Below, in pieces: positions 29,693-39,850 of a stretch of 39,850 nucleotides of DNA. Below the pieces are notes generated by a model, which saw only the letters and a list, made by a program, of their open reading frames with translations, had not been told where the DNA came from and did not search any database. The translations under genes and the position numbers were made by a program. Every line of letters starts with the position of its first letter. The stretch's first letter is position 1. Source of the DNA: Bacteroidales bacterium (lineage in GTDB: Bacteria > Bacteroidota > Bacteroidia > Bacteroidales > UBA932). Where the stretch lies: assembly GCA_017630215.1 (NCBI GenBank), contig JAGBVR010000016.1, positions 1 through 39,850 of the forward strand. Direction: 5' to 3'.

Positions 29693-30433
29693 ATGAAAAG
29701 GATCTATTGTGCTTTGCTGATATCTTTCGCTGTGTCGGTGTCCTTGACTTGTGCGCAGGAAACTCCGGAAGTAGTCGATTCTCCCGACATTCGGGAAAAT
29801 GTAATCAAGACCTTCTCCGTTCTCGGAGATTCGTATTCCACATTCGAAGGATATATCCCCGAGGGTAATGCCTGGTGGTACTCCTCACGTCCGCAAGGCC
29901 AGAATGATGTGGTGAAAGTCGAAGATACCTGGTGGCGTCAGTTTAGTTCCCTAACCGGATATGAACTGCTTCTGAATGAAAGCTGGAGTGGCTCGACTAT
30001 ATGCAACACTGGCTATGACGGCGTACCTTGCCCGACATGGTCGTTCATAGCACGTATGAAAAATATCGTAGCTGGGGATTGTGACCCGGATCTGATATTG
30101 ATCTGCGGAGGTACCAATGACTCCTGGGCTAATTCGCCAATAGGCCAGTTGAAATTCAGTGACTGGACTGAAGAGGACTTGGCCTCCTATCTTCCTGCCT
30201 GCTGTTATATGCTTGACTATCTTCGTCGTGAGGCTCCTCAGGCTGCAATCGTATGTGTTGTGAATTCCGAGCTGAAACCCGAGATTACTCAGGGACAGTT
30301 CGATGCATGTGAGCACTATGGCGCACATGCTCTGCTGCTTAAGGATATTGACAAGATATGGGGACATCCCAGCGTTGCCGGCATGACTTCCATGTGTGAG
30401 CAGGTGGGTGCCTTTGTATCTGAATTGAGATAA
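29693..30433 (+). CDS. SGNH/GDSL hydrolase lipoprotein
   Basis: The 246-residue protein has a signal with a possible lipobox SLTC (Cys20). SGNH blocks are in place: SVLGDSYST with nucleophile Ser47, ESWSGSTICNTGY (block II Gly), CGGTNDSWA with Asn142, and KDIDKIWGHPSVAG with His225. Such enzymes are usually acyl or acetyl esterases on carbohydrates. It is a paralogue of the minus-strand protein at 31095-32426, sharing NDVVKVEDTWW, TICNTGY, GGTND and NSEL. I chose ATG 29693 since it starts the signal peptide. It is divergent from the GH2 gene and 3 bases upstream of the DUF1847 gene. Confidence 0.88.
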   Translation: MKRIYCALLISFAVSVSLTCAQETPEVVDSPDIRENVIKTFSVLGDSYSTFEGYIPEGNAWWYSSRPQGQNDVVKVEDTWWRQFSSLTGYELLLNESWSGSTICNTGYDGVPCPTWSFIARMKNIVAGDCDPDLILICGGTNDSWANSPIGQLKFSDWTEEDLASYLPACCYMLDYLRREAPQAAIVCVVNSELKPEITQGQFDACEHYGAHALLLKDIDKIWGHPSVAGMTSMCEQVGAFVSELR

Positions 30434-30436
30434 TCT

Positions 30437-31066
30437 ATGGAAGAAAAGACTTTAAGCTGCGTGGACTGCGGCACCCAGAACTGCAAATTCAAGACAAGGA
30501 CATATCCGGAATTCTGCCTCACTACCAATCTTTCTCACGAGGATTCGGCCTGGGCTTTGGCACGTTATGACGAGGATAGGAACAAGGAGATAATGATTGC
30601 CAGCGCTGAAGTCGAATACGAAGGCTATTGCAAGTGGACCCGTGTTCAGGAGATAATGGAGTTTGCAAAGAAGATCGGTGCACGAAAGATCGGTATTGCT
30701 AACTGCATAGGATTGATAAATGAAGCCCGTGTCTTTGCCAGGATTCTGAGGGCCAATGGTTTCGAGCCTTATGCCGTTATCTGCAAGGTTGCCGGACAGG
30801 CTAAAAGTTCAATGGGCATACCGCCGCAATGTGAGGAAATCGGCCCGGCAATGTGCAATCCTATCCTTCAGGCAAGGCTGCTGAACCAGGCCGGTACCGA
30901 TCTGAATGTGGTGATCGGTCTTTGTGTCGGACATGACAGCCTGTTCTATAGATATTCAGAGGCTTACGTGACTACGCTCGTGACCAAGGACAGGGTCACC
31001 GGCAATAATCCTGCTGCAGCGCTTTACACTGCGGGATCGTACTATAAGCAGAAGTTCGGAGTATAG
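30437..31066 (+). CDS. DUF1847 putative metal-binding protein
   Basis: The 209-residue cytoplasmic protein resembles the DUF1847 family. The N-terminus is rich in Cys: SCVDCGTQNC (Cys8, Cys11, Cys16) and Cys27, a likely metal site. It continues with VQEIMEFAKKIGARKIGIANCIGLINEA and the C-terminal CVGHDSLFYRYSEA block of the family. The biochemical role is unknown. It starts 3 bases after the SGNH hydrolase stop, so the two are co-transcribed. Confidence 0.85.
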   Translation: MEEKTLSCVDCGTQNCKFKTRTYPEFCLTTNLSHEDSAWALARYDEDRNKEIMIASAEVEYEGYCKWTRVQEIMEFAKKIGARKIGIANCIGLINEARVFARILRANGFEPYAVICKVAGQAKSSMGIPPQCEEIGPAMCNPILQARLLNQAGTDLNVVIGLCVGHDSLFYRYSEAYVTTLVTKDRVTGNNPAAALYTAGSYYKQKFGV

Positions 31067-31094
31067 TATCCGGGGGAGGCTGGAACCCATACGG

Positions 31095-32426
31095 TCAATG
31101 TACGTCGATTCCGTCGAAATATATTTCTGAAATGACGGTGTCTTTATGACGAGTGCCCGGGTATACCTCAAGTATTTCGAATTTCAGCGTCCATACTGCT
31201 GTTTCCTTCGCAGAAAGACCATTGCCGAGAATTCCTACATCGAACCACTGCAAGGTGCGGCTGTCCTCTAATTCGAGTATGCCGATAGGCGTGTCATTGT
31301 AGTATAATTTCAATTTCCTGACACGTGAATTCTCCCTCCAAAGCTTCTCGTTCCTAACATAGCCGTTGAGGATCATGACAGTAGTCACCCTAGGGCAATT
31401 TCCGGGAAATTCATATATGATGTATTCGCCGATTCCATTTCCTTTCACCCCTTCTGCCCATGCGGATTCGTGGTTGAAATCATGAAGGTTTTCAGCGTCA
31501 TATGTCTTTGTTCCTTGTGGCTTGAGGCAGCTTGATGCGGTTATGTTGTTTACCGAGCCGCCGCAGTACCAGCTGCAAGCAGGGGTGTAGAATTGTTCGT
31601 ATATGGGATTGGTCTCAAGAAACTGGTCGATATCAGAGTTTCCATTGTCTATATCTTTATACATTATCTCGTATTCCGCCTTGCTGATATCAGGGACTTT
31701 CCAGGTTCCTGCAGGCTTGATGAGCCTTTCGCTTCCTATTGCCTGGATCAGCTGGTCGCAGATACTCTTCATTCCTTTTATGGAAGGGTGGCCGTTCTGC
31801 TTTTCAATATCATGAAGCTCAATCAATTGTATTCCGTAATGCTTGCAGATTGTCCGGCTCGATTCATTGATTTCCTCGCGGAGTTCAGAGTTGAGGATGG
31901 AGTAGATCTGTGCTTTGGGGTACTTTTCACGGAGCTGGTCAAAAAGGCAGGCGAGTGCCGGCCTGAAACTCTTGCAATCCTCCTTTGTCCATCCTTCATA
32001 CTGATATTCACCAATTGGAGAGCCGGCCCATGCGTCGTTTGTACCTCCGAACACGAAAATTATGTCCGGGTTGCCTAACATATCCACTCTGGAGGTAAAT
32101 GCGGAAGATGAAGAATCCATTCTTCCGTATCCTGTATTGCATATTGTAGTACCTCCCCAGGAATTATTAGCCTCCAGTTCATAACCCATGGCATTGATGT
32201 AAAGATCCCACCATGTCTCCTCCACTTTTGTTACATCATTCCTGTCATTGGGATAGAAAGGAGCGTATCCTTCCGGATTGTGTCCTGCAAAAGTCGAATA
32301 TGAATCTCCTAATATAGAGACCTTTTTGGCTTCAGCCTCTTTTGTGTCGTTGTTCTGTGCTGCTGTATTGAATGTTGCTACCAGCGAAACGACTGCTGTG
32401 ACCATAAGTGTAAAGATCTTTTTCAT
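31095..32426 (-). CDS. Secreted SGNH hydrolase with C-terminal discoidin-like domain
   Basis: The 443-residue protein has a signal peptide (cleavage near TAAQ). An SGNH domain follows at about residues 35-235: VSILGDSYST with Ser42, NSWGGTTICNTGY, FGGTNDAWA and NGHPSIKG. A C-terminal domain at about 300-440 has ASSCLKPQG, ESAWAEGVKGNGIGEYIIYEF, MILNGYVRNEKLWRENSRVR and VISEIYFDG. That pattern is the discoidin-like, NADase-type glycan-binding fold. The enzyme probably de-esterifies a glycan held by its own binding domain. It is a paralogue of the plus-strand SGNH protein 660 bases away. I use ATG 32426, the start of the signal peptide. Confidence 0.88.
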   Translation of the reverse strand: MKKIFTLMVTAVVSLVATFNTAAQNNDTKEAEAKKVSILGDSYSTFAGHNPEGYAPFYPNDRNDVTKVEETWWDLYINAMGYELEANNSWGGTTICNTGYGRMDSSSSAFTSRVDMLGNPDIIFVFGGTNDAWAGSPIGEYQYEGWTKEDCKSFRPALACLFDQLREKYPKAQIYSILNSELREEINESSRTICKHYGIQLIELHDIEKQNGHPSIKGMKSICDQLIQAIGSERLIKPAGTWKVPDISKAEYEIMYKDIDNGNSDIDQFLETNPIYEQFYTPACSWYCGGSVNNITASSCLKPQGTKTYDAENLHDFNHESAWAEGVKGNGIGEYIIYEFPGNCPRVTTVMILNGYVRNEKLWRENSRVRKLKLYYNDTPIGILELEDSRTLQWFDVGILGNGLSAKETAVWTLKFEILEVYPGTRHKDTVISEIYFDGIDVH

Positions 32427-32856
32427 ATCAGATGTCGGTTTTGTCCGAAATTTACAAAAAATCTTTATATGCAATATCGTATGACTGATAGAAATTAGAG
32501 TTTTTCATTTCTGCCCCGCTCGGGGTTAGGCCTGAGCGCTATGATAAGATCACCGACTGAAAAATACAACATAACTATCCTTAGCGAAGAAGGTAGAAGA
32601 TTTAGGCCGTATTTATCAGTTGAGGAAGTTTTTTCCGTCGTTTTATGATGAAAACAGAGGGGACAAAACAGTCTGCCGATTAAGGCACGGACGTTCTCTT
32701 TCTTACCGAGGCGGATACGTGTGTATGCTCTTACCTTGATAAGTGTCGGGTAAACCATCTTGATAGTAACCCGAATCTCCGCATAATTCGTTTTCTTTAT
32801 CATTGATTAAATTGTTTGCTACTTGTGAAAACGATTTGGGGAGGTTCAGAGTACGC
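32427..32856. other. Gene-free region left of the IS256 element
   Basis: No convincing gene is seen. The stretch contains a CCCCG/CGGGG palindrome (32514-32525), one copy of a dispersed repeat (from 32552), and a copy of a sequence (32801-32822) that recurs inverted at 35666-35685. A 102-codon open frame on the minus strand covers much of it but has no signal of being real. Confidence 0.6.
32552..32572. repeat. Dispersed repeat, copy 1
   Basis: These 21 bases, beginning ACCGACTGAAAAATACAACA, recur exactly at 37716-37736. After them both copies continue with a related GAAGA-rich stretch. Copies of the family lie only in the accessory region. Confidence 0.8.
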
Positions 32857-32864
32857 CCCTCTGT
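32857..32864. repeat. Left target-site duplication of the IS256 element
   Basis: CCCTCTGT (or CCCCTCTGT from 32856) lies directly outside the left inverted repeat and is repeated at 35598-35605 outside the right one. IS256-family elements make 8-9 bp duplications. Confidence 0.7.
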
Positions 32865-32890
32865 GAGAGTGTAAAATGAACTGTGTCAAG
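32865..32890 (+). repeat. Left terminal inverted repeat
   Basis: Starts GAGAGTGTAAAA and ends TGAACTGTGTCAAG, a sequence style common at IS256-family ends. It pairs with 35572-35597. Confidence 0.75.
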
Positions 32891-32904
32891 CAAGAATAAA
32901 GTTT

Positions 32905-32912
32905 TATTTTTG
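32905..32912 (+). promoter_or_regulatory. -7 box for the transposase
   Basis: TATTTTTG matches TAnnTTTG, 16 bases before ATG 32928 and just inside the left end. A -33 element would fall within the inverted repeat, but none is clear. Confidence 0.45.
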
Positions 32913-32927
32913 TAATACACAGTAACG

Positions 32928-34142
32928 ATGAAAAAAGAAGTAGATTTCAACATCTTCAAGGCACAGATCCTTGAGGAGATCAAAGCGGTTAAGCCGCTAT
33001 TCGGTAAAGATGGAGCACTTGCTCCGATGATTGAGAACATAGTCAATGCGGTCTTGGAGGGAGAGATGGATGCTCACCTTACTCAGGAGTCACGCGAGTC
33101 AGGCAATCGTCGCAATGGCAAGATGCAGAAACAGGTTCAGACACCTGTAGGCGACATCACAGTTACAACTCCGAGAGACCGTGACGCCTCATTCGATCCC
33201 CAATTCATTAAAAATAGAGAAACTATGCTGTCCGAGGGTATGGCAGACCGTATTATCGGTCTGTATGCTCTTGGAACAAGCACTAGAGACATCAGCAGTT
33301 GGCTTGAAGAGACAGTTGGCATATCTGTATCTGCTGAGACTATAAGTTCCATAACAGATAGAGTTCTGCCTGAACTTGAGGCCTGGCGTAACCGTAGCCT
33401 TGATGAAGTCTATCCTATCGTATGGCTCGACGCTCTGCATTACAAGGTAATGGATGAAAAGAATAGAGTGGTCTCCAGGGCTATCTACAATGTGCTTGGC
33501 ATTGACAAAGATGGTCATAAGGATCTGCTGGGTATGTATGTTTCAAAGAGCGAGGGTGCAAACTTCTGGCTATCTGTTTTAACAGACCTTCAGAACAGAG
33601 GAGTGAAAGACGTAATGATTGCCTGCATAGATGGACTGAAAGGCTTCCCAGATGCCATCAAGAGCGTATTCCCTGACACGGCTGTACAGCTTTGTGTCAT
33701 CCATCAGATACGCAACTCGATGAAGTATGTGGGCAGCAAGTATCAGAAGGAGTTCATGAAGGATCTGAAGCCAGTATATGGTGCGGTGACGAAAGATGCT
33801 GGCGAGATGGCTCTTGACAAACTTGAAGAGAAGTGGGGCGAGCAGTATCCAATAGTCATCAAGTCATGGCGTGGCAACTGGGACCGCTTAAGCGAGTTCT
33901 TTCAGTATTCCGAGCCCATCAGGAAGCTCATTTATACGACCAATACGGTGGAAGGCTACCATCGCCAGATCCGTAAGGTCACAAAGAACAAGGGTGTTTC
34001 CCCGAACGACACTGCCTTGGTCAAACTCGTCTACCTTGCATATCGTAATGCCCGCAAAAAATGGACTATGCCTGTCCCTAACTGGGGCATTATCTCACAA
34101 CAGCTTGCGATAAAGTTCGAAGACAGATACAATTTGCTATAG
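32928..34142 (+). CDS. IS256 (Mutator-like) family transposase
   Basis: The 404-residue protein appears intact. The DDE catalytic residues are visible: Asp168 in VYPIVWLDALHYKV, Asp235 in ACIDGLKGFPDAI, and Glu342 in TTNTVEGYHRQIRK. VQLCVIHQIRNS between the last two is the family's Cys/His block. The N-terminal part (NRRNGKMQKQV, TPRDRDASFDPQ) is the DNA-binding region. The frame is uninterrupted, so the element may be active. It is followed, within the same ends, by a serpin gene. Confidence 0.96.
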   Translation: MKKEVDFNIFKAQILEEIKAVKPLFGKDGALAPMIENIVNAVLEGEMDAHLTQESRESGNRRNGKMQKQVQTPVGDITVTTPRDRDASFDPQFIKNRETMLSEGMADRIIGLYALGTSTRDISSWLEETVGISVSAETISSITDRVLPELEAWRNRSLDEVYPIVWLDALHYKVMDEKNRVVSRAIYNVLGIDKDGHKDLLGMYVSKSEGANFWLSVLTDLQNRGVKDVMIACIDGLKGFPDAIKSVFPDTAVQLCVIHQIRNSMKYVGSKYQKEFMKDLKPVYGAVTKDAGEMALDKLEEKWGEQYPIVIKSWRGNWDRLSEFFQYSEPIRKLIYTTNTVEGYHRQIRKVTKNKGVSPNDTALVKLVYLAYRNARKKWTMPVPNWGIISQQLAIKFEDRYNLL

Positions 34143-34180
34143 ATTTGTTATATTTACACCGACAAATCGCATTTAAGCGT

Positions 34181-34211
34181 CACGATAGATGTGGATTTAG
34201 CATCTATCGTG
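34181..34211. repeat. Hairpin between transposase and serpin genes
   Basis: CACGATAGATG (34181-34191) and CATCTATCGTG (34201-34211) form a perfect 11-bp stem with a 9-base loop, 38 bases after the transposase stop. There is no T-tract. It may insulate the serpin gene from transposase transcription or be a regulator site. Confidence 0.7.
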
Positions 34212-34252
34212 GAAGTATTACAAGATATGGTACGTTATTAAAATAAAAGCTT

Positions 34253-35548
34253 ATGAGAACTGCCCTTATTCTTGGTATTATTGCAGGATTTACGTGTATT
34301 ATTTCCTGCTCAGATATTGATACAGTCAAGGTAAAGGATCCGATTACCATTTCATCCCCATCTCCTACAGAACAAATCACAAAAGTTACCCTGAGTGATA
34401 TGCAATCGGGTTATGTGGAAGCTGGGAATACTATGTCATTCAAATTCCTCAAAGAAATATACTGTGGAGAGAATCTGATATGTTCACCTCTGAGTCTTCA
34501 GTATGCCATTGCAATGGCTGCAAATGGAGCTAGTGGCGAAACTCTTCAGGAAATCATCGATTTTCTGGGTTATGGCGAAGAAGGTATAGATGCATTGAAT
34601 GAGTATAGTAAAACTTTGCTCGAGCAGTTACCTGCTGTTGATCTCGATGTAACTTTGAAAGTGACAGATGCTCTTTTAGTTAATGATGATTTCCCTCTTC
34701 TGCCATCTTTCAAGAAGACTGTCGAAGAAAGCTTTTACGCCGCTGTTGACAACATGGATTTTTCTGATCCTCAGCAGATTGCTGCGCGAATTAATGAGTG
34801 GGCGAAAAGAAATACCAATGGTTTTATCGATAAAGTAATTGAACCGTCTGAGATATCGGCTGATGCAGTAGCATATATTATGAATGCTTTATATTTTAAA
34901 GCTAAATGGGCTGGAGATGAGTATAGCCCTATGTTTAGGGAGGAAGGGACAAAATCTGAGAATTTTACGTTAAATGATGGCAAAACTATAAAGGCAGCCA
35001 TGATGAGAAATACACGATATCATGAGTATGCTGAAATGGATGGTTATAAAGTCTTAGTATTGCCATATGCAAACAGAAAATTCAACATGTATATTCTTCT
35101 CCCTGACGAAAACAATATTGAAGGACTCATTGAAAAGCTGCAGACATCATCTTGGACAGATATTCTCGCAAACTTGAAACAAGATGCTGAAGTACATGTC
35201 AAACTTCCAAAGTTCAATATAGAAAATAAACACAATCTGAATGATGCTCTCAATGGGCTTGGCGTCAGAAAAGCATTTGAGCCCGCGTCTGCAGAATTTA
35301 ACGGAATGTTTACCCCAAAGGATGACTATTATTATTGGATAAGCAAGGTCATCCAGAAGTCTCGTATTTCAGTTTCAGAATGGGGTACAGAAGCTGGTTC
35401 CGTCACTGTCGTTGAGATGGATGGCGCCACTGATGCTGGCCCAGGTCCAAAAGAGGTTTATTTCTATGCTGACCACCCATTTGTGTTCATTATAGGAGAA
35501 GAAACCTCAGGAACTATCCTTTTCGAAGGAGTTGTAATGCAACCTTAA
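34253..35548 (+). CDS. Serpin-family protease inhibitor, lipoprotein
   Basis: The 431-residue protein has a lipoprotein signal with lipobox IISC (Cys19) and a full serpin fold: NLICSPLSLQYAIAMAANGA, INEWAKRNTNGFIDKVI, MNALYFKAKW, and the end DHPFVFIIGEETSGTILFEG. The hinge SEWGTEAGSVTVV keeps Thr at P14 and mostly small residues at P12-P8, which favours an inhibitory mechanism rather than a dead substrate. Counting from the hinge places P1-P1' near Ala-Thr, but the loop is about six residues longer than in alpha-1-antitrypsin, so the cleavage bond is uncertain. It lies inside the inverted repeats of the IS256 element and is AT-richer than the core genes. Confidence 0.93.
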   Translation: MRTALILGIIAGFTCIISCSDIDTVKVKDPITISSPSPTEQITKVTLSDMQSGYVEAGNTMSFKFLKEIYCGENLICSPLSLQYAIAMAANGASGETLQEIIDFLGYGEEGIDALNEYSKTLLEQLPAVDLDVTLKVTDALLVNDDFPLLPSFKKTVEESFYAAVDNMDFSDPQQIAARINEWAKRNTNGFIDKVIEPSEISADAVAYIMNALYFKAKWAGDEYSPMFREEGTKSENFTLNDGKTIKAAMMRNTRYHEYAEMDGYKVLVLPYANRKFNMYILLPDENNIEGLIEKLQTSSWTDILANLKQDAEVHVKLPKFNIENKHNLNDALNGLGVRKAFEPASAEFNGMFTPKDDYYYWISKVIQKSRISVSEWGTEAGSVTVVEMDGATDAGPGPKEVYFYADHPFVFIIGEETSGTILFEGVVMQP

Positions 35549-35571
35549 AGTATTCCAATTTATCTAACAGC

Positions 35572-35597
35572 CTTGACACAGTTCAGCTGACGCCCCC
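35572..35597 (-). repeat. Right terminal inverted repeat
   Basis: Begins CTTGACACAGTTCA, the exact complement of the inner left repeat, then GCTGACGC and a C run. It lies 24 bases after the serpin stop. Confidence 0.7.
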
Positions 35598-35605
35598 CCC
35601 TCTGT
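35598..35605. repeat. Right target-site duplication
   Basis: CCCTCTGT, matching 32857-32864; one further C upstream also matches, giving 8-9 bp. Confidence 0.65.
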
Positions 35606-35617
35606 AGTATGGTTCAG

Positions 35618-35685
35618 AAAAAAAGAAAAGACATCATTGGGGTGATGTCTAATCTGTAAAAGGTTGTAGCAAACCTTAATCAATG
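35618..35685 (-). ncRNA. Candidate small RNA (about 68 nt)
   Basis: On the minus strand a full promoter (TTG at 35719-35721, 19 bases, TACCTTTG at 35692-35699) points at a start near 35685. The transcript would have a 5' hairpin, AAGGTT/AACCTT (35660-35677). It would end in an 8-bp hairpin, AGACATCA/TGATGTCT (35629-35650), followed by TTTCTTTTTTT. There is no open frame in it. Promoter, hairpin and terminator in correct order make a small RNA plausible. It could also be the attenuated leader of a lost gene, or a remnant of a mobile element end, since its first 20 bases recur at 32801-32822. Confidence 0.5.
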
Positions 35686-35691
35686 ATGGGA

Positions 35692-35721
35692 CAAAGGTAC
35701 AAACATTTTCCATATTTCCAA
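35692..35721 (-). promoter_or_regulatory. Promoter of the candidate small RNA
   Basis: On the minus strand: TTG, 19-base spacer, TACCTTTG. It matches the Bacteroidota consensus and has no gene but the short terminated unit downstream. Confidence 0.6.
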
Positions 35722-35767
35722 TGATCCAGAGGAAATATCCACTTCCATAAGCCCATCCCTGTGGGGA

Positions 35768-35792
35768 TCCTCCACAGAGAAGAGGAACATGA
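35768..35792. repeat. Dispersed repeat, copy 2 (partial)
   Basis: Twenty-three of 25 bases match 37742-37766 (TCCTCCAC, then GAGAAGAGGAAC), but the ACCGACTG part is missing. The rest of the 35606-35945 interval shows only the candidate small RNA and its promoter. Confidence 0.7.
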
Positions 35793-35945
35793 GATTTTGA
35801 GGTGTTTTGAGGTCACCTTATGCATTGCGGTGACCAAAAGTGACCAACGCTAAATCTTTGCGTGAAAACGAGGGATACTGCGTGATAGTCATCAGTGGGA
35901 GATATCAAGAAATAATATCATTAATTGAATTGCGGGCATTAAAAA

Positions 35946-35975
35946 AGTGTATTCAAATTGTTTTTTGAATACACT
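35946..35975 (-). terminator. Terminator of the gene at 35996-36703
   Basis: AGTGTATTCAAA pairs with TTTGAATACACT (12 bp). On the minus strand the stem is followed by TTTTTT, 20 bases past the gene's stop codon. Confidence 0.85.
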
Positions 35976-35995
35976 CCGTTTAGTTAAATTGAGAT

Positions 35996-36703
35996 TTACT
36001 TAATAGGAATCAACTCTAATTTCAGGAAAATAGGACGAGTACACCACTTTCCGTTTTCATCATCATAATTTTCTACGCCAAAACAATAGAGTGAATCTTT
36101 ATGCCATACCATCGCATTATTAAAGTCCAGTCCTTCAAATTCAGGGAAATCTTCGTACCAAGGTAATTTCCACTTGTTGTTGATATATACTGCCATTTCT
36201 TCCATTCGGGCAAGGTTGCCGTCTTTATGTCGGTAAAAATGAAGCCACGCAATATGATCACAGTCAAAACCTCTGCAGCCAACATATATACCTGTTTTGG
36301 AATATGCAGCACGGTTGCTTCCATTGATTTGGGTGGAATCTGCTTGAAAGTTTTCATCCACAAAAATTGCCCCACACCAGTCGGCATACCCTAAATCCGC
36401 GATATACTCACCAGTAGGATATTGTCCAATGTTATCAATTATATAATCTGTCCATATATATGCTTCCTTTTCTTCATCGGTAAGCGTGCGGAATACTGCA
36501 ACTTCAATCTGTTTCTTCTTATGCCAAGACAGTGTTGTGTCTCTGACCTGATTGTACTCGAAGCGATGCTGATACGCATCAATATAATCATCTCGAGTAA
36601 TCCTTGTTTCCTTAACACTGAACTGATGCTCTTGTGCTGAAATGTCTAGACAGAACATAAGAGATAACAACCATAATGTTGTAAACAATGATGCTCTTAA
36701 CAT
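35996..36703 (-). CDS. Secreted hypothetical protein
   Basis: The 235-residue protein has a clear signal peptide (hydrophobic LFTTLWLLSLMFCLDISAQ). The mature part is rich in Asp, Tyr and Trp (DLGYADWCGAIFVDE, GIYVGCRGFDCDHIAWLHFY, AVYINNKWKLPWYEDFPEF) and has four Cys that could form disulfides. I do not recognise a family. The repeated W/Y-D patterns suggest a beta-rich extracellular fold. It has its own terminator, and no clear promoter is seen. It lies in a region of mobile-element remnants, so horizontal origin is likely. Confidence 0.7.
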   Translation of the reverse strand: MLRASLFTTLWLLSLMFCLDISAQEHQFSVKETRITRDDYIDAYQHRFEYNQVRDTTLSWHKKKQIEVAVFRTLTDEEKEAYIWTDYIIDNIGQYPTGEYIADLGYADWCGAIFVDENFQADSTQINGSNRAAYSKTGIYVGCRGFDCDHIAWLHFYRHKDGNLARMEEMAVYINNKWKLPWYEDFPEFEGLDFNNAMVWHKDSLYCFGVENYDDENGKWCTRPIFLKLELIPIK

Positions 36704-36730
36704 AACGTGGTAACTTTAATATACAGTAAC

Positions 36731-36738
36731 TATGTTTG
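36731..36738 (+). promoter_or_regulatory. Possible -7 box upstream of the IS110 remnant
   Basis: TATGTTTG matches TAnnTTTG, with only a weak -33 (GTGG at 36707-36710, 20-base spacing). A transcript would start near 36745 and run through the structured region at 36756-36800. Confidence 0.4.
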
Positions 36739-36755
36739 TAATCTATTGAAAGACG

Positions 36756-36800
36756 CTCTCAGGGGCTTGTCGGCCCCTGCCGCTTGGCAGCCCCCCGAGA
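36756..36800 (+). ncRNA. Structured leader of the IS110 remnant (candidate bridge-RNA segment)
   Basis: Two adjacent GC-rich hairpins, AGGGGC/GCCCCT (36761-36778) and CTGCC/GGCAG (36777-36790, overlapping by two bases, so a minor register shift is needed), are enclosed by TCTC/GAGA (36757-36760 and 36797-36800). This lies in the non-coding leader 81 bases before the IS110-type start codon, the place where the IS110 group encodes its bridge RNA. The role here is inference. Confidence 0.35.
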
Positions 36801-36880
36801 AGTTTTTCATATAAAAGTTAAGCTACTGATATTTTTGCTAAATTTATTTGGCATCAATTATTATCAAAAATACAGTAGCT

Positions 36881-37222
36881 ATGGGTACACAAAGAAAGGA
36901 ATTTTCCTTCAAAGGTCAAAAGATTTTTGTCGGATTAGATGTGCATTTAAAGAGCTGGACAGTAACGGTTCTATCTGAGCAGTCAGTTCTGAAGAAGTTT
37001 ACTCAGGATCCTAGTCCTGCCGCCTTGTACAAATTCCTCAGCAACACCTATCCTGGTGCAGAGTATTATTCTGTCTACGAGGCCGGTTTTTGCGGATTTT
37101 GGATACACTGGGAACTCCACAACCTAGGCATCAATAACATTGTGGTCAATCCAGCAGATGTCCCTACCATGGGAGGAGAGAGATTGAGAAAAACTGACGC
37201 TGTGGATAGTGGAAAGTTGTAA
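36881..37222 (+). pseudogene. IS110-family transposase, truncated N-terminal fragment
   Basis: The 113-codon fragment starts MGTQRKEFSFKGQKIF and has the RuvC-like DEDD features of IS110 transposases: Asp in FVGLDVHLKSW, Glu in SVYEAGFCGF, and the block GGERLRKTDAVDSGKL with the later Asp pair. Full-length members are about 300-350 residues with a C-terminal Ser domain, so two thirds is missing. The frame ends at 37222 and an unrelated minus-strand gene ends 18 bases later. The fragment cannot transpose by itself. Confidence 0.85.
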
Positions 37223-37239
37223 TTTACTTACCGAAGTTT

Positions 37240-37659
37240 CTAATATATCCATTCATATTCAACATAATCCACAGAGGCATCCATAATTATTGCACTGTCT
37301 GAATACATTTTTATAATAATGGATTCATAACCTACAAAATGATCTAGATATTCCAATTTTACATCAGGCAGTCTGAATAGAGCATCTTGTGGCAAACCTT
37401 TATAACCACCTTCCCTAAAGAATATCTTACCACATTTAAAGGATTTATATAGCCAATAAACATCATCTATAAGGTGGTAACGAATAGTTAGTGACTTGGC
37501 ATTTGGTCTGAGATTGCGCACTGAGTCATACCTGCTGATGTCGTTTATAAACGAAAATACTAGAGACTGTTCCTCTAACATAATTTTATTTATTATGCAA
37601 TCGTGAGGGACAGGCATTGCTGGTAATGTGTCTTGATTCAGATAATATATTTCCTTCAT
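37240..37659 (-). CDS. Hypothetical protein
   Basis: The 139-residue protein has no signal peptide and no recognised motif. It is rich in Tyr, Asp and Ile (SFINDISRYDSVRNL, SLTIRYHLIDDVYWLY, ending DASVDYVEYEWIY), a composition seen in many small cytoplasmic immunity-type proteins, but no toxin gene is nearby. The low GC content and the setting next to an IS110 remnant suggest acquired DNA. The call as a real gene rests on length and composition only. Confidence 0.6.
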   Translation of the reverse strand: MKEIYYLNQDTLPAMPVPHDCIINKIMLEEQSLVFSFINDISRYDSVRNLRPNAKSLTIRYHLIDDVYWLYKSFKCGKIFFREGGYKGLPQDALFRLPDVKLEYLDHFVGYESIIIKMYSDSAIIMDASVDYVEYEWIY

Positions 37660-37715
37660 AACCTCGTATTTATCCTATCTACTAAGTACCGATTTGTCGG
37701 TATAAAGTTATGCAA

Positions 37716-37766
37716 ACCGACTGAAAAATACAACATTACTCTCCTCCACGGAGAAGAGGAACTTGA
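37716..37766. repeat. Dispersed repeat, copy 3 (most complete)
   Basis: The first 21 bases equal copy 1 (32552-32572), and 37742-37766 match copy 2 (35768-35792) at 23 of 25 positions, so this copy joins both halves. On the minus strand one frame reads SSPWRRVMLYFSVG and copy 1 reads SSLRIVMLYFSVG, hinting at descent from a coding sequence. Confidence 0.75.
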
Positions 37767-37820
37767 TTCTTTTGAGCGATATTGAATTTGGTTCGCTTTT
37801 GGCTTGAGACAAAATGTGAT

Positions 37821-39071
37821 TTAAATGAATCTCAAAGAACCAATTGCGTTAAATTCTATTCCTTTTATGCCAGCCTCTCTAAAGGCTTTGATAAGCCGCG
37901 CTGACATATATGTTTCCTTGCCATTCTGTATGTATATCAGATCACGCTTTGCATATTTCTGTGGAAGAACAGGAAATGCAATAGTGTAACTTTCTGTGGA
38001 ATCAGAAAATTCGGAATACGAGGCGAATTTTCGGTACTCATCATCACCAATAATCTTTTTATACAATGAGTTACTGAAGTTGATTTCATTGTGTCCTATA
38101 GACTTTATGAACATCAGGTAGTATTGGGTATTGGAATCCTTTATACGGATAGGTATCAGAGTGTATTCTTCTTTGGAGATATTCATGTCTTCAAGAATTT
38201 CCTTTACTTTCATACTTACAGCAGCAACCATTCCTGACCTGTAATAATAGGCACTCATAAAGTCCCAAGAGTCGTCTTTATAATCCAAGGTACCTTCAAT
38301 GTTGTTCGGTATATTGTCAAATATCCAACTCTGATTTTCTTGATACAATAAGTCTGTGCTTGCATACTTTGACATATGCTCATCCCATTCCTTACTGAAT
38401 ATTTTCACTCCTTGCGACGCAGCACGTCTGCCTAAAAGACTGCTGTCCCACGAAACGGAGAATCCTCGATGACCTGTATCTCCTTGACAAAGTTCCTTGT
38501 GTTTTTCTACCCAAAGAGTGGAAATGCTCCAGTCACTTCTTCTTTCTTTTTCTTTACGGATCAGTTCCTCTGCATATCCCCATCTTTTGGTAAGAAGTGA
38601 GTACTTGATGATGTTGTTGCAGAAAAATGGCTGATGTCCTGAACCATTTTCAAGTATGCATTGAAGTAAAGTGTCAATGTCTAAAATGGATTTGAAGAAG
38701 TCGTCCAGATTAATCAATGCCTTTCTGATGAAGTCAGAAAGCAAGGATTTGTCATATTCCTTGATGCATATTGAATTGCCGCCATTCAAATCCACAATAT
38801 CCTTGTGATACAAAGTGTAATGGTTCCCGTGCAAATCTTTGGGATTCATTGAGTTTGACAGGTATCCAGTTACATTCGCTATATCAAATGAGAATATACT
38901 TGCGCATATACTGAATGTGTCATTAGTAGCAGAGTGAGGTGTGAAGAACTCGACTGTATAAACAAAACTTTCGTTTTGCCTATGGAAAAGGCCTCCTGCC
39001 TTACGATAGCCCAGTTGTTTCATCATTGGGCGGATCTCAATATCCAGAAGATCTTTTATACTACTATTCAT
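37821..39071 (-). CDS. DUF4304-like protein
   Basis: The 416-residue protein has an N-terminal part like DUF4304: IKDLLDIEIRPMMKQLGYRKAGGLFHRQNESFVYTVEF, where a short helix leads to a beta-sheet. The remainder (SDWSISTLWVEKHKELCQG, the end FREAGIKGIEFNAIG) is not recognised. There is no signal peptide, so it is cytoplasmic. Function is unknown; DUF4304 proteins are common in accessory regions. It starts 80 bases downstream of the HipB-like gene on the same strand, so both may be one transcript, in the place where hipA usually lies. Confidence 0.65.
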   Translation of the reverse strand: MNSSIKDLLDIEIRPMMKQLGYRKAGGLFHRQNESFVYTVEFFTPHSATNDTFSICASIFSFDIANVTGYLSNSMNPKDLHGNHYTLYHKDIVDLNGGNSICIKEYDKSLLSDFIRKALINLDDFFKSILDIDTLLQCILENGSGHQPFFCNNIIKYSLLTKRWGYAEELIRKEKERRSDWSISTLWVEKHKELCQGDTGHRGFSVSWDSSLLGRRAASQGVKIFSKEWDEHMSKYASTDLLYQENQSWIFDNIPNNIEGTLDYKDDSWDFMSAYYYRSGMVAAVSMKVKEILEDMNISKEEYTLIPIRIKDSNTQYYLMFIKSIGHNEINFSNSLYKKIIGDDEYRKFASYSEFSDSTESYTIAFPVLPQKYAKRDLIYIQNGKETYMSARLIKAFREAGIKGIEFNAIGSLRFI

Positions 39072-39151
39072 AAAGTTTGCGTTATACTATTGCTTATCCT
39101 TTCCCTCAAAGGATTTGAAATTTGCAATTACATATAATTTGTCCATATCCA

Positions 39152-39469
39152 CTACTTCTTAGATGCTCGTTCGCGGTTAATCAAGGCTATATCCTGGAGT
39201 TCCTTGCCAAGCTTATCTTCCTTAGCAATGAATAATATGTCGTCTTCAAGCTGCAAGGCATACAAGACGCGCAGATATATTCCGATAGCTACAGTCGGAC
39301 TTCCTTTCTCAACTCGAGCTTCGGTCAGTTCAGAACACATAGCACGTTCAGCGACCTGTGCTCTGCTGAGGTTGCGTCTGAGTCGGGCAAGCTTGATTTG
39401 CTCACCTACAATCTTCATATTTTCTTCCAATCTTCTCGGAAGACGTGTTGCCATAGTACTTTTGCCCAT
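39152..39469 (-). CDS. HipB-like XRE-family regulator without a HipA partner
   Basis: The 105-residue protein has a helix-turn-helix of the XRE/HipB type: IVGEQIKLARLRRNLSRAQV, then AERAMCSELTEARVEKG. It continues IYLRVLYALQLEDDILFIA, a pattern common to Bacteroidota antitoxins that precede a HipA-type kinase. Here the next gene on the strand is the DUF4304-like gene, and no HipA motif is seen in the window. It may be an orphan antitoxin or regulator. A later in-frame ATG at 39454 is an alternative start. Confidence 0.85.
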   Translation of the reverse strand: MGKSTMATRLPRRLEENMKIVGEQIKLARLRRNLSRAQVAERAMCSELTEARVEKGSPTVAIGIYLRVLYALQLEDDILFIAKEDKLGKELQDIALINRERASKK

Positions 39470-39498
39470 AATGGATGCTTAACATATCATATAATATG

Positions 39499-39506
39499 CA
39501 AATATA
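39499..39506 (-). promoter_or_regulatory. Possible -7 box for the HipB-like gene
   Basis: On the minus strand TATATTTG matches the consensus, 29 bases before the start codon. The -33 element is not clear. Confidence 0.45.
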
Positions 39507-39605
39507 GTAATATTTCTTAATTTTATGATAGGTTGATTCGTTTTGTTCTACAAAATCAGATAAAAATACGTTGAATTCTCGGTTTTAGTATCTTAACTGC
39601 CAAAT

Positions 39606-39622
39606 ATGTGAAAATTTCACAT
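39606..39622. promoter_or_regulatory. Palindromic operator-like site
   Basis: ATGTGAAAATTTCACAT is a perfect 17-base palindrome with a single central A. It lies between the HipB-like gene and the promoter at 39675, about 100 bases from either promoter element. It resembles an XRE-type operator, but binding is inference. Confidence 0.45.
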
Positions 39623-39674
39623 AAAAGTGAGTTGATATTGCGATTTCGCTCTTGAAAGAAGTTGCCTGGAGGTG

Positions 39675-39704
39675 TTTGAGATAAGGAAAAAGTCTCTACA
39701 TTTG
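39675..39704 (+). promoter_or_regulatory. Strong promoter at the right edge
   Basis: TTTG at 39675-39678, an 18-base spacer and TACATTTG at 39697-39704 match the consensus fully. Transcription would start near 39711, before the short ORF at 39727. Confidence 0.7.
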
Positions 39705-39726
39705 CATCCGCAAACAAAGAAAAACC

Positions 39727-39825
39727 ATGAGATATTCAATGAACATAATTACACTTGAACCGAAAGTCAGCACAGGATGGATCCTGGGTTGTAGAGTGCG
39801 ATATGCTCATTGTAGTGGTAACTGA
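39727..39825 (+). CDS. Short ORF (32 codons), possible leader or gene fragment
   Basis: It starts MRYSMNIITLEPKVSTGW and stops with TGA at 39823, 16 bases after the predicted transcription start. I do not recognise the peptide. Its strong promoter and well-placed start suggest a real transcript, but the ORF could equally be the broken start of a longer gene that continues out of the window. Confidence 0.3.
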   Translation: MRYSMNIITLEPKVSTGWILGCRVRYAHCSGN

Positions 39826-39850
39826 TAGATAGATCTGTCAAGACTATATA

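Follow-up and report, generated by a model that had tools for sequence, protein, structure and literature searches.

A transporter-type IS256-family element with a serpin passenger and a probably exchangeable cargo slot in a Bacteroidales genome

Integrons and integrase-less cassette clusters combine a promoter-proximal first joint, co-oriented single-gene cassettes, and a common core, and attC sites have lengths of 57–141 b. Transporter insertion sequences (tIS) are insertion sequences (ISs) with passenger genes (PMC3129680, PMC9330008; portions at hand), and recombinase-associated acquired interbacterial defence (rAID), as set out in the available parts of PMC12247911, involves a tyrosine recombinase, co-oriented short orphan-immunity genes, and conserved intergenic motifs. 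A literature search on ISs with cassette-type cargo found no such element in the accessible portions of PMC3129680 and PMC9330008, and the accessible portion of PMC3942029 contained no IS256 element with passengers. The present study concerns a 39,850-nucleotide stretch of DNA from a Bacteroidales bacterium (contig JAGBVR010000016.1; hereafter the window), whose genome is 58% complete and holds one transposase match. The window contains a unit that resembles a miniature vehicle for gene delivery in which the cargo can be exchanged, and we hold with good confidence that it is a transporter-type IS256-family element with swappable cargo, whose cassette pool is common with chromosomal arrays.

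The unit occupies positions 32,865–35,597 (2733 bp) in the order left end, transposase, serpin, and right end, and is bracketed as a whole by an exact 8-bp duplication, CCCTCTGT, at 32,857–32,864 and 35,598–35,605; random 8-bp flank pairs drawn from the window matched in 12 of 200,000 draws. The left end (IRL, GAGAGTGTAAAATGAACTGTGTCAAG; 32,865–32,890, + strand) is identical in L054, L055, L069, and L112 and has one mismatch in L056, and the right end (IRR, about 35,571–35,597, − strand; the + strand reads CCTTGACACAGTTCAGCTGACGCCCCC) is common to L054, L055, L056, and L122 and is also present, as in the window, on contig C1 of the same genome. The two 26-b ends (32,865–32,890 and 35,572–35,597) differ at 6 positions, with the inner 14 bases, TGAACTGTGTCAAG, matching exactly at 32,877–32,890 (+) and 35,572–35,585 (−); with up to two mismatches, TGAACTGTGTCAAG was matched three times in the window against an expectation of 0.36. 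The intact 404-aa transposase (IS256 family, Mutator; 32,928–34,142, +) is free of internal stops, matches PF00872 over nearly its full length (5e-101, profile positions 10–377 of 379), and is 93–94% identical to those of L054–L056. Directly 3′ of its stop lies a promoter-like leader (34,151–34,176, +) that ends in the 5′ cassette joint and has 4 of 26 mismatches to the consensus TATTTACACCGATAAATCGGAATTTA, and the 431-aa serpin that forms the passenger gene (34,253–35,548, +; PF00079, 1.2e-89) is followed by a trailing cassette core, TATTCCAATTTATCTAA (35,551–35,567, +), with three mismatches to the consensus TAAATTCSRATTTATCT (counted from L103). When 2.5 kb past the transposase stop were scanned with one mismatch allowed, the earliest right-end-like sequence stood at +1434, behind the serpin.

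These features include the hallmarks of the IS256 family, the prokaryotic Mutator group (a PF00872 transposase, imperfect terminal inverted repeats of about 26 b, and an 8-bp duplication), and that of a transporter IS, in that the serpin lies inside the ends, between transposase and right end. A sequence-only reading of this DNA had proposed an IS256-family element with a serpin passenger, a transposase that lacks a nearby right end, and an inverted copy of the left end beyond the serpin (14 inner bases exact, 20 of 26 overall), and all of this was borne out; its target duplication of 8–9 bp narrows to 8 bp, the ninth base being part of the right end's C-run, and its mobile unit of about 2.7 kb stands at 2733 bp, the claimed span of 32,857–35,605 having taken in the duplications. 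A composite transposon was ruled out by the single transposase copy with one left and one right end, and a chance right end behind the serpin was ruled out by the end-match counts, the duplication, and the position of the first right end.

Sister units bear on movement. A duplication was present in all four units that have a transposase and both flanks (three exact, L056 off by one base), among them a 4150-bp unit with GAGAAATG (L047) and units with TTATTCCT (L055) and with GTTTTTTG plus one extra G (L056); at L112, both ends are present, yet transposase and duplication are missing. The L054 and L055 units, from two metagenome-assembled genomes (MAGs), hold a transposase and two lipoprotein genes and are identical at 2233 of 2235 positions, yet the right flank of L054 has no match in L055, which argues that whole units move. 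Movement is in this way shown for the sister unit, and for the window copy the anatomy suggests the same. Recurrence at a second place, which the sequence-only reading had put forward as a check on the 2.7-kb unit, was seen for this sister unit; the serpin-bearing unit itself was found in one of 101 genomes, its own. The stretch left of the unit (30,437–32,860) was matched in parts by 52 of 300 genomes of the genus. Spread on phages is unsupported, viral_contigs having yielded neither a relative of the transposase nor an exact match to the right end or the leader.

The serpin has a full domain (PF00079 positions 4–370 of 370) and, by eye, a lipoprotein-like N-terminal signal (MRTALILGIIAGFTCIISC); it is probably surface-anchored and would shield the cell from serine proteases of the host or of rivals. 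Its best match by phmmer against the PDB was conserpin (5cdx, 2.9e-48). Miropin is a serpin of Tannerella, and the window serpin resembles it in the full domain and in a hinge, EWGTEAGSVT, that by eye is of the inhibitory type, but differs in being IS-borne and only moderately similar (5nct and 5ncw, E about 1e-35), with conserpin scoring better. Serpins 60–78% identical occur in five other species, where the fetched stretches contained neither IS nor cassette motifs, and a comparison with window positions 30,001–39,850 found the serpin as the only shared part, the flanks being unmatched; in this non-exhaustive set, the refuting case named by the sequence-only reading, in which relatives would have the serpin at the corresponding site but no transposase, was not encountered. 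It is extremely improbable that a dead IS merely lies beside a resident serpin gene, with a right end that is there by chance or as a solo copy: right-end-like sequences do occur without an adjoining transposase, notably by the fumA gene, but the exact duplication spans the whole unit, three further units share its architecture and have duplications, and the window flanks match none of the five serpin loci, which together contradict a resident serpin hit by a dead IS. The idea that the right end is a dispersed junction repeat beside a truncated IS was likewise overturned by the sister units and the duplications.

Carriage of cargo follows transposase relatedness in the elements measured. In all five both-ended elements whose transposases are at least 87% identical (the window, L054, L055, L056, and L047), the right end lies behind other genes, 384 to about 2850 b past the transposase stop, whereas all 11 measured relatives at about 67–79% identity end 86–200 b past the stop without cargo (for L065–L067, whose genes are broken, the distance is counted from where the tblastn match stops), and two Bacteroides plasmid copies end 84 b past it. 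This sub-group, with its right end at about 0.4 to 2.8 kb, differs in this respect from the measured compact IS256 relatives, whose right ends lie no more than 200 b past the stop, and the condition that would have refuted the sequence-only reading, copies of this transposase with a right end about 100 bases or less past the stop, is found in distant relatives only. In a transposase tree, the four passenger rows grouped with weak support (48/86); 12 of 16 rows were kept, L056, L065, L066, and L067 being left out for stops in their translations, and most of the genomes compared are fragmentary MAGs. Cargo behind close transposases or their tails comprises the serpin, TfoX_N, a PF00144 hydrolase, an FGE-sulfatase, unknown lipoproteins, and a Lipocalin_4-like protein just below the cut-off.

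The cargo slot has recurring borders. A promoter-like leader ending in ATAAATCGGAATTTA lies 3′ of the transposase in seven of ten distinct transposase-linked loci, behind the stop or the transposase tail (the window, L056, L069, L070, L073/L141, L113, and L161), and is missing behind the stop at L054/L055, L105, and L047; since three of ten loci lack it, cassette exchange is not the sole way in. The core TAAATTCSRATTTATCT precedes most right ends, and conservation at its position climbs from about zero to near the maximum in 11 right-end rows. With up to two edits allowed, the 320 kb of selected loci gave 37 rows with this core against 1.5 expected (about 34 separate sites after removal of a twice-entered locus and two palindromic double counts, in loci partly picked by related motifs); the window gave no match at this threshold because its core has three mismatches.

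Recurring cargo genes are found both in IS units and in IS-free arrays, and their homology stops at or near the core; neither this sharing of joints nor the variation of the slot was part of the sequence-only reading. A barstar gene occurs in five genomes at 93–98% DNA identity, the shared stretch beginning at the AATTTATG joint or a little ahead of it and stopping at the TAAATTCSAATTTATCT joint, with the leader as upstream neighbour in L177 and L144 and another gene's core in L139, L106, and L178. A second gene keeps such joints in three contexts and two more do so in two contexts each, with exceptions. Beside the unit and outside the IS, a gene for a 235-aa protein of unknown function (35,996–36,703, −; no Pfam match above the cut-off) is followed by a core variant, TAAATCTCAATTTAACT (35,982–35,998, −), just past which a 747-b match to L161 at 93% identity stops; in L161, from another species, the same gene sits between a transposase tail and a right end. 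The joints have exceptions, the 5′ side of this neighbouring gene being without a core and one gene ending in half a core. Four genes have shared stretches whose ends coincide with the core or fall close to it, these exceptions apart, and from them we infer gene exchange at a common core.

An ordinary transporter IS, in which a far right end is occasionally used and cargo becomes trapped while leader and core are inherited from a founder without exchange, is distinctly unlikely: such ISs are already known from the available parts of PMC3129680 and PMC9330008, and L054/L055, L105, and L047 hold cargo without a leader, but one gene has varied upstream neighbours and also lies in IS-free arrays, breaking at the same few bases, and differing genes adjoin one common right boundary at the fumA locus. 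Cargo exchange might instead need no recombinase of its own, if right ends, transposase genes, and leaders, being repeated, recombined through homology or short homology; we regard this as rather unlikely. Repeats of 20–50 b, in the form of leaders, cores, and ends, do lie at many places, and a motif scan of seven loci flagged no recombinase (the same scan overlooked one in L177 that was found by Pfam); the stretch shared at joints between unrelated neighbours is, however, only about 10–17 b by eye, and RecA-type exchange needs longer homology.

That the cassettes are acquired interbacterial defence of the rAID type, one site of which was simply captured by the IS, appears unlikely. Arrays do hold immunity-type genes, namely barstar (PF01337), which in L106 adjoins an IS right end with no transposase seen, and a WapI-like gene (PF24716) in the C26 array, and the co-oriented short genes with a common intergenic motif fit the Bacteroidales rAID features in the accessible text of PMC12247911, a likeness by description. 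Against this, no recombinase was seen at the array head in the seven loci scanned (by the scan that overlooked the one in L177), the window unit has no immunity-type gene, the cassettes lie inside a transposable element, and the IS-borne cargo is broad, the serpin, FGE-sulfatase, TfoX_N, and hydrolase not being immunity-like. The tyrosine recombinase of L177 (PF00589, 2.9e-11), about 600 b past the array end on the opposite strand, is the only one identified, and no recombinase was linked to the core; our likeliest guess for the exchange enzyme is a tyrosine recombinase that acts in trans.

Under the exchangeable-cargo reading, the transposase would recognise both ends, the right one lying past the cargo, judging from the biochemistry of its family, and everything between would move as one unit and give an 8-bp target duplication. 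The stretch from transposase stop to right end would form the cargo bay, which in the main sub-group opens with the promoter-like leader and closes with the short near-palindromic core, and comparison of the joints suggests that single genes swap by recombination within TAAATTC|SRATTTA, present in both joints. Because the same genes occur in chromosomal arrays with the same joints, the IS would load from and deliver to a common cassette pool, and because the homology of recurring cargo breaks off at the core or close to it, the slot behaves like an integron-type cassette bay. The resemblance to integrons lies in the promoter-proximal first joint, the co-oriented cassettes, the common short core, and the presence of the same gene at varied positions; the difference lies in a near-palindrome of about 14–17 b, by eye too short for attC, and in the lack of an integrase tied to the core. 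With transporter ISs, units of this group share one transposase, two ends, transposition-unrelated passengers between them, and movement as a whole, but here the passenger changes from one close copy to the next at fixed joints, and some of these genes also lie in IS-free arrays. What we infer to be new is a transporter IS whose cargo is exchangeable in an integron-like manner.

We also suggest, tentatively and with less than even expectation, an undescribed site-specific cassette system of the Bacteroidales, with a 14–17-b palindromic joint (TAAATTC|SRATTTA), a recombinase, and IS256-family elements as self-mobile carriers. How arrays gain and lose members is called open in the available text of the rAID paper (PMC12247911), and the present reading makes such gain and loss in Bacteroidales gene arrays testable. 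It would offer a concrete vehicle for the loading, swapping, and transfer between gut species of single accessory genes, i.e., protease inhibitors, immunity proteins, and lipoproteins, and, if true, the cassette system would act much like an integron at IS scale, shuttling surface lipoproteins, protease inhibitors, and immunity genes across species.

The serpin-bearing unit is 2733 bp long and comprises an IS256-family transposase gene (32928-34142; PF00872, 5e-101) and, downstream of it, a serpin gene (34253-35548; PF00079, 1.2e-89), bounded by a left end, GAGAGTGTAAAATGAACTGTGTCAAG (32865-32890), and its inverted partner, the right end GGGGGCGTCAGCTGAACTGTGTCAAG (35572-35597). The two ends differ at 6 of 26 positions and match exactly over the inner 14 bases, as the sequence-only reading had described, and CCCTCTGT stands at both flanks; the direct repeat of 8-9 bp in that reading is kept at 8 bp, the ninth base belonging to the C-run of the right end. 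Chance agreement of 8-bp flank pairs arose in 12 of 200,000 random draws for the window. The serpin domain is full-length, and inspection by eye shows a signal of lipoprotein type and a hinge of inhibitory type. The same genome has another perfect right end at a contig edge (C1), where it follows the tail of a different gene. By its anatomy the element is both a member of the IS256 family and a transporter IS, and its transposase would work like those of other IS256 elements.

Scanning one genome per species yielded 32 loci, with transposases 93-94% identical in three Horse_feces MAGs (loci L054, L055, and L056) and pieces of 98-100% identity in others. The L055 unit measures 2235 bp from end to end, consists of the transposase and two small lipoprotein genes, and has TTATTCCT at both flanks; L054, from a different MAG, carries this unit at 2233 of 2235 identical bases. 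The left end of L054 is the contig start, so that only a right flank is available for comparison, and this flank has no match in the L055 locus. Judged by this comparison, the whole sister unit has passed between genomes. L056, the transposase of which has one internal stop, carries a TfoX_N-domain gene between duplicated flanks GTTTTTTG with one extra base at the left, and L047, from the same genus (transposase 87% identical), is a 4150-bp unit encoding a cargo protein of 616 aa, with GAGAAATG duplicated exactly at its flanks. All four units with a transposase and both flanks have the target duplication (three exact, one shifted by a base). The proposal of a single mobile unit is thereby upheld in its ends, its duplication, and the passage of its sister. 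The serpin unit itself turned up in its own genome only: among the 101 genomes searched, the sole whole match was that of the window. A fifth two-ended unit, of 1591 b in another genus of the family (L112, 5195-6785), carries a cargo gene between the same pair of ends, with neither transposase match nor duplication, and is possibly a non-autonomous derivative.

The sequence-only reading had also asked whether other copies of the transposase end about 100 bases after the stop, which is the case for distant relatives (84-200 b) and not for the cargo-bearing sub-group. A right repeat lies 86-200 b past the stop in 11 of 11 measured more distant relatives (L057-L060, L063-L067, L012, and L028; L061, L062, L071, and others whose right sides were cut or masked did not enter the count) and 84 b past it in two Bacteroides plasmid copies, the end being less regular in L181. 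The cargo bay, i.e., the space from transposase stop to right end, is thus a feature of the sub-group, the four usable rows of which fall on one side of a weakly supported branch (48/86) in a 12-row tree.

Transposases or their remnants are followed by further cargo besides the serpin, the TfoX_N gene, the L054/L055 lipoproteins (no Pfam match), and the L047 protein (LRR_5 similarity below threshold). L069 carries a PF00144 hydrolase and, after it, part of an adenylyltransferase family gene that the contig end truncates. In L070, which L122 extends via a shared end, the cargo is an FGE-sulfatase lipoprotein. Genes of unknown function stand in L073 (two, the same in L141), L105 (two others), and L161 (one). 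At L105 (4442-6083), two cargo units, each a transposase tail, cargo, and right end, lie head to tail as if joined end to end, the second holding a lipoprotein just below the Lipocalin_4 cut-off. The G+C content was measured for the serpin and for eight more genes from cargo or cassettes: seven of these nine have 37-42%, and the other two 47.1% (TfoX_N) and 51.2% (FGE-sulfatase), versus 45.9% for the window.

Two short motifs recur around the cargo. A promoter-like leader, of common form TTATATTTACACCGATAAATCGGAATTTA, is present behind the transposase stop or remaining tail in 7 of the 10 separate loci linked to a transposase (window, L056, L069, L070, L073/L141, L113, and L161; absent from L054/L055, L105, and L047), with 4 mismatches of 26 in the window and, in L113, no evident gene behind it; it would serve as the cargo promoter. 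The core, a near-palindrome TAAATTCSRATTTATCTAACAG, precedes most right ends (3 mismatches in the window). In the 11 right-end rows that do not belong to the fumA site, columns upstream of the core carry little information, and those from the core through the C-run are close to the maximum. With up to 2 edits allowed, 320 kb of fetched loci gave 37 rows for the core, where 1.5 would be expected; discounting a locus entered in duplicate and two sites hit on both strands leaves about 34 sites, many of them the leader read backwards. The loci were partly chosen by related motifs, and the window itself had no such match. Leader and right end are rare in the family as a whole: 8 of 398 genomes have the leader (up to 3 mismatches) and 9 the right end (up to 2).

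The same genes recur beside different neighbors. A barstar gene in five genomes (93-98% DNA identity) follows a leader in two and another gene's core in three; in pairwise alignments the shared stretch starts at AATTTATG or no more than about 20-30 b from it, stops within or shortly past TAAATTCSAATTTATCT or its local variant, and is longer where neighboring joints resemble each other. A second gene (97-99% identity) occurs on contig C26 of the window's genome, in genome G106, and behind the transposase tail in L073/L141, each time with a different upstream gene. It breaks at a full core on the 5' side and ends at half a core on the 3' side, and the match extends into the beginning of the right end in C26 and G106. 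Over 747 b the gene neighboring the IS (35996-36703, minus strand) shares 93% identity with the L161 cargo; its 3' side stops at the core, and its 5' side starts behind the leader in L161 and lacks a core in the window. At the fumA locus of two genomes, a fourth gene has cores at both ends. On the evidence of these alignments, changes of neighbor occur at the joints, and leader and core thus look like equivalent joints with crossover inside TAAATTC|SRATTTA. A recombinase acting in trans would make the exchange, a candidate being a tyrosine recombinase (L177, 6656-7564, minus strand; PF00589, 2.9e-11) some 600 b past the end of a barstar cassette array; short repeated stretches recombining by themselves could also produce it.

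A decayed right end lies at or near fumA in 12 loci, with differing genes adjoining it (beside fumA in L139, L144, L151, L157, L158, L162-L165, and L049); fumA was inside the fetched stretch in 9 of the 12 (tblastn) and in L049, and not in L159 or L168, and L139 and L158 retain only the right half of the core. The site looks as if an ancient cargo unit had turned into a fixed cassette site. To the left of the IS, the window has a lipase gene (31095-32474, minus strand) with a NADase_transloc domain (PF25302), a domain also present in a fumA-locus cassette gene (L172, 17700-18410).

Right of the IS, a second promoter-like leader (37683-37766, minus strand) precedes an ORF (37240-37659, minus strand) and is 97% identical over 74 b (37689-37762) to the leader of an IS-free cassette array on C26; this region may constitute a further minus-strand cassette array. 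A 41-b dispersed repeat (32552-32592) recurs at 37716-37756, in C26, and partly in G039 and G629. The repeat at 35767-35877 has matches at the two borders of the C26 cassette island (L040, 8809-8888 and 11145-11193). By eye, this island is framed by a tRNA 3' end and its partial copy, so the repeat may be of att type.

A limited literature search found no description of an IS with such a cargo bay. Its cargo variation resembles that of integrons, no integrase being tied to the core, and that of the rAID arrays of Bacteroidales (tyrosine recombinase, co-oriented short immunity genes, and conserved intergenic motifs; PMC12247911), and neither likeness is taken to imply membership; barstar and WapI-like immunity genes are present in arrays with these joints. 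The serpin itself would protect the cell surface from serine proteases.
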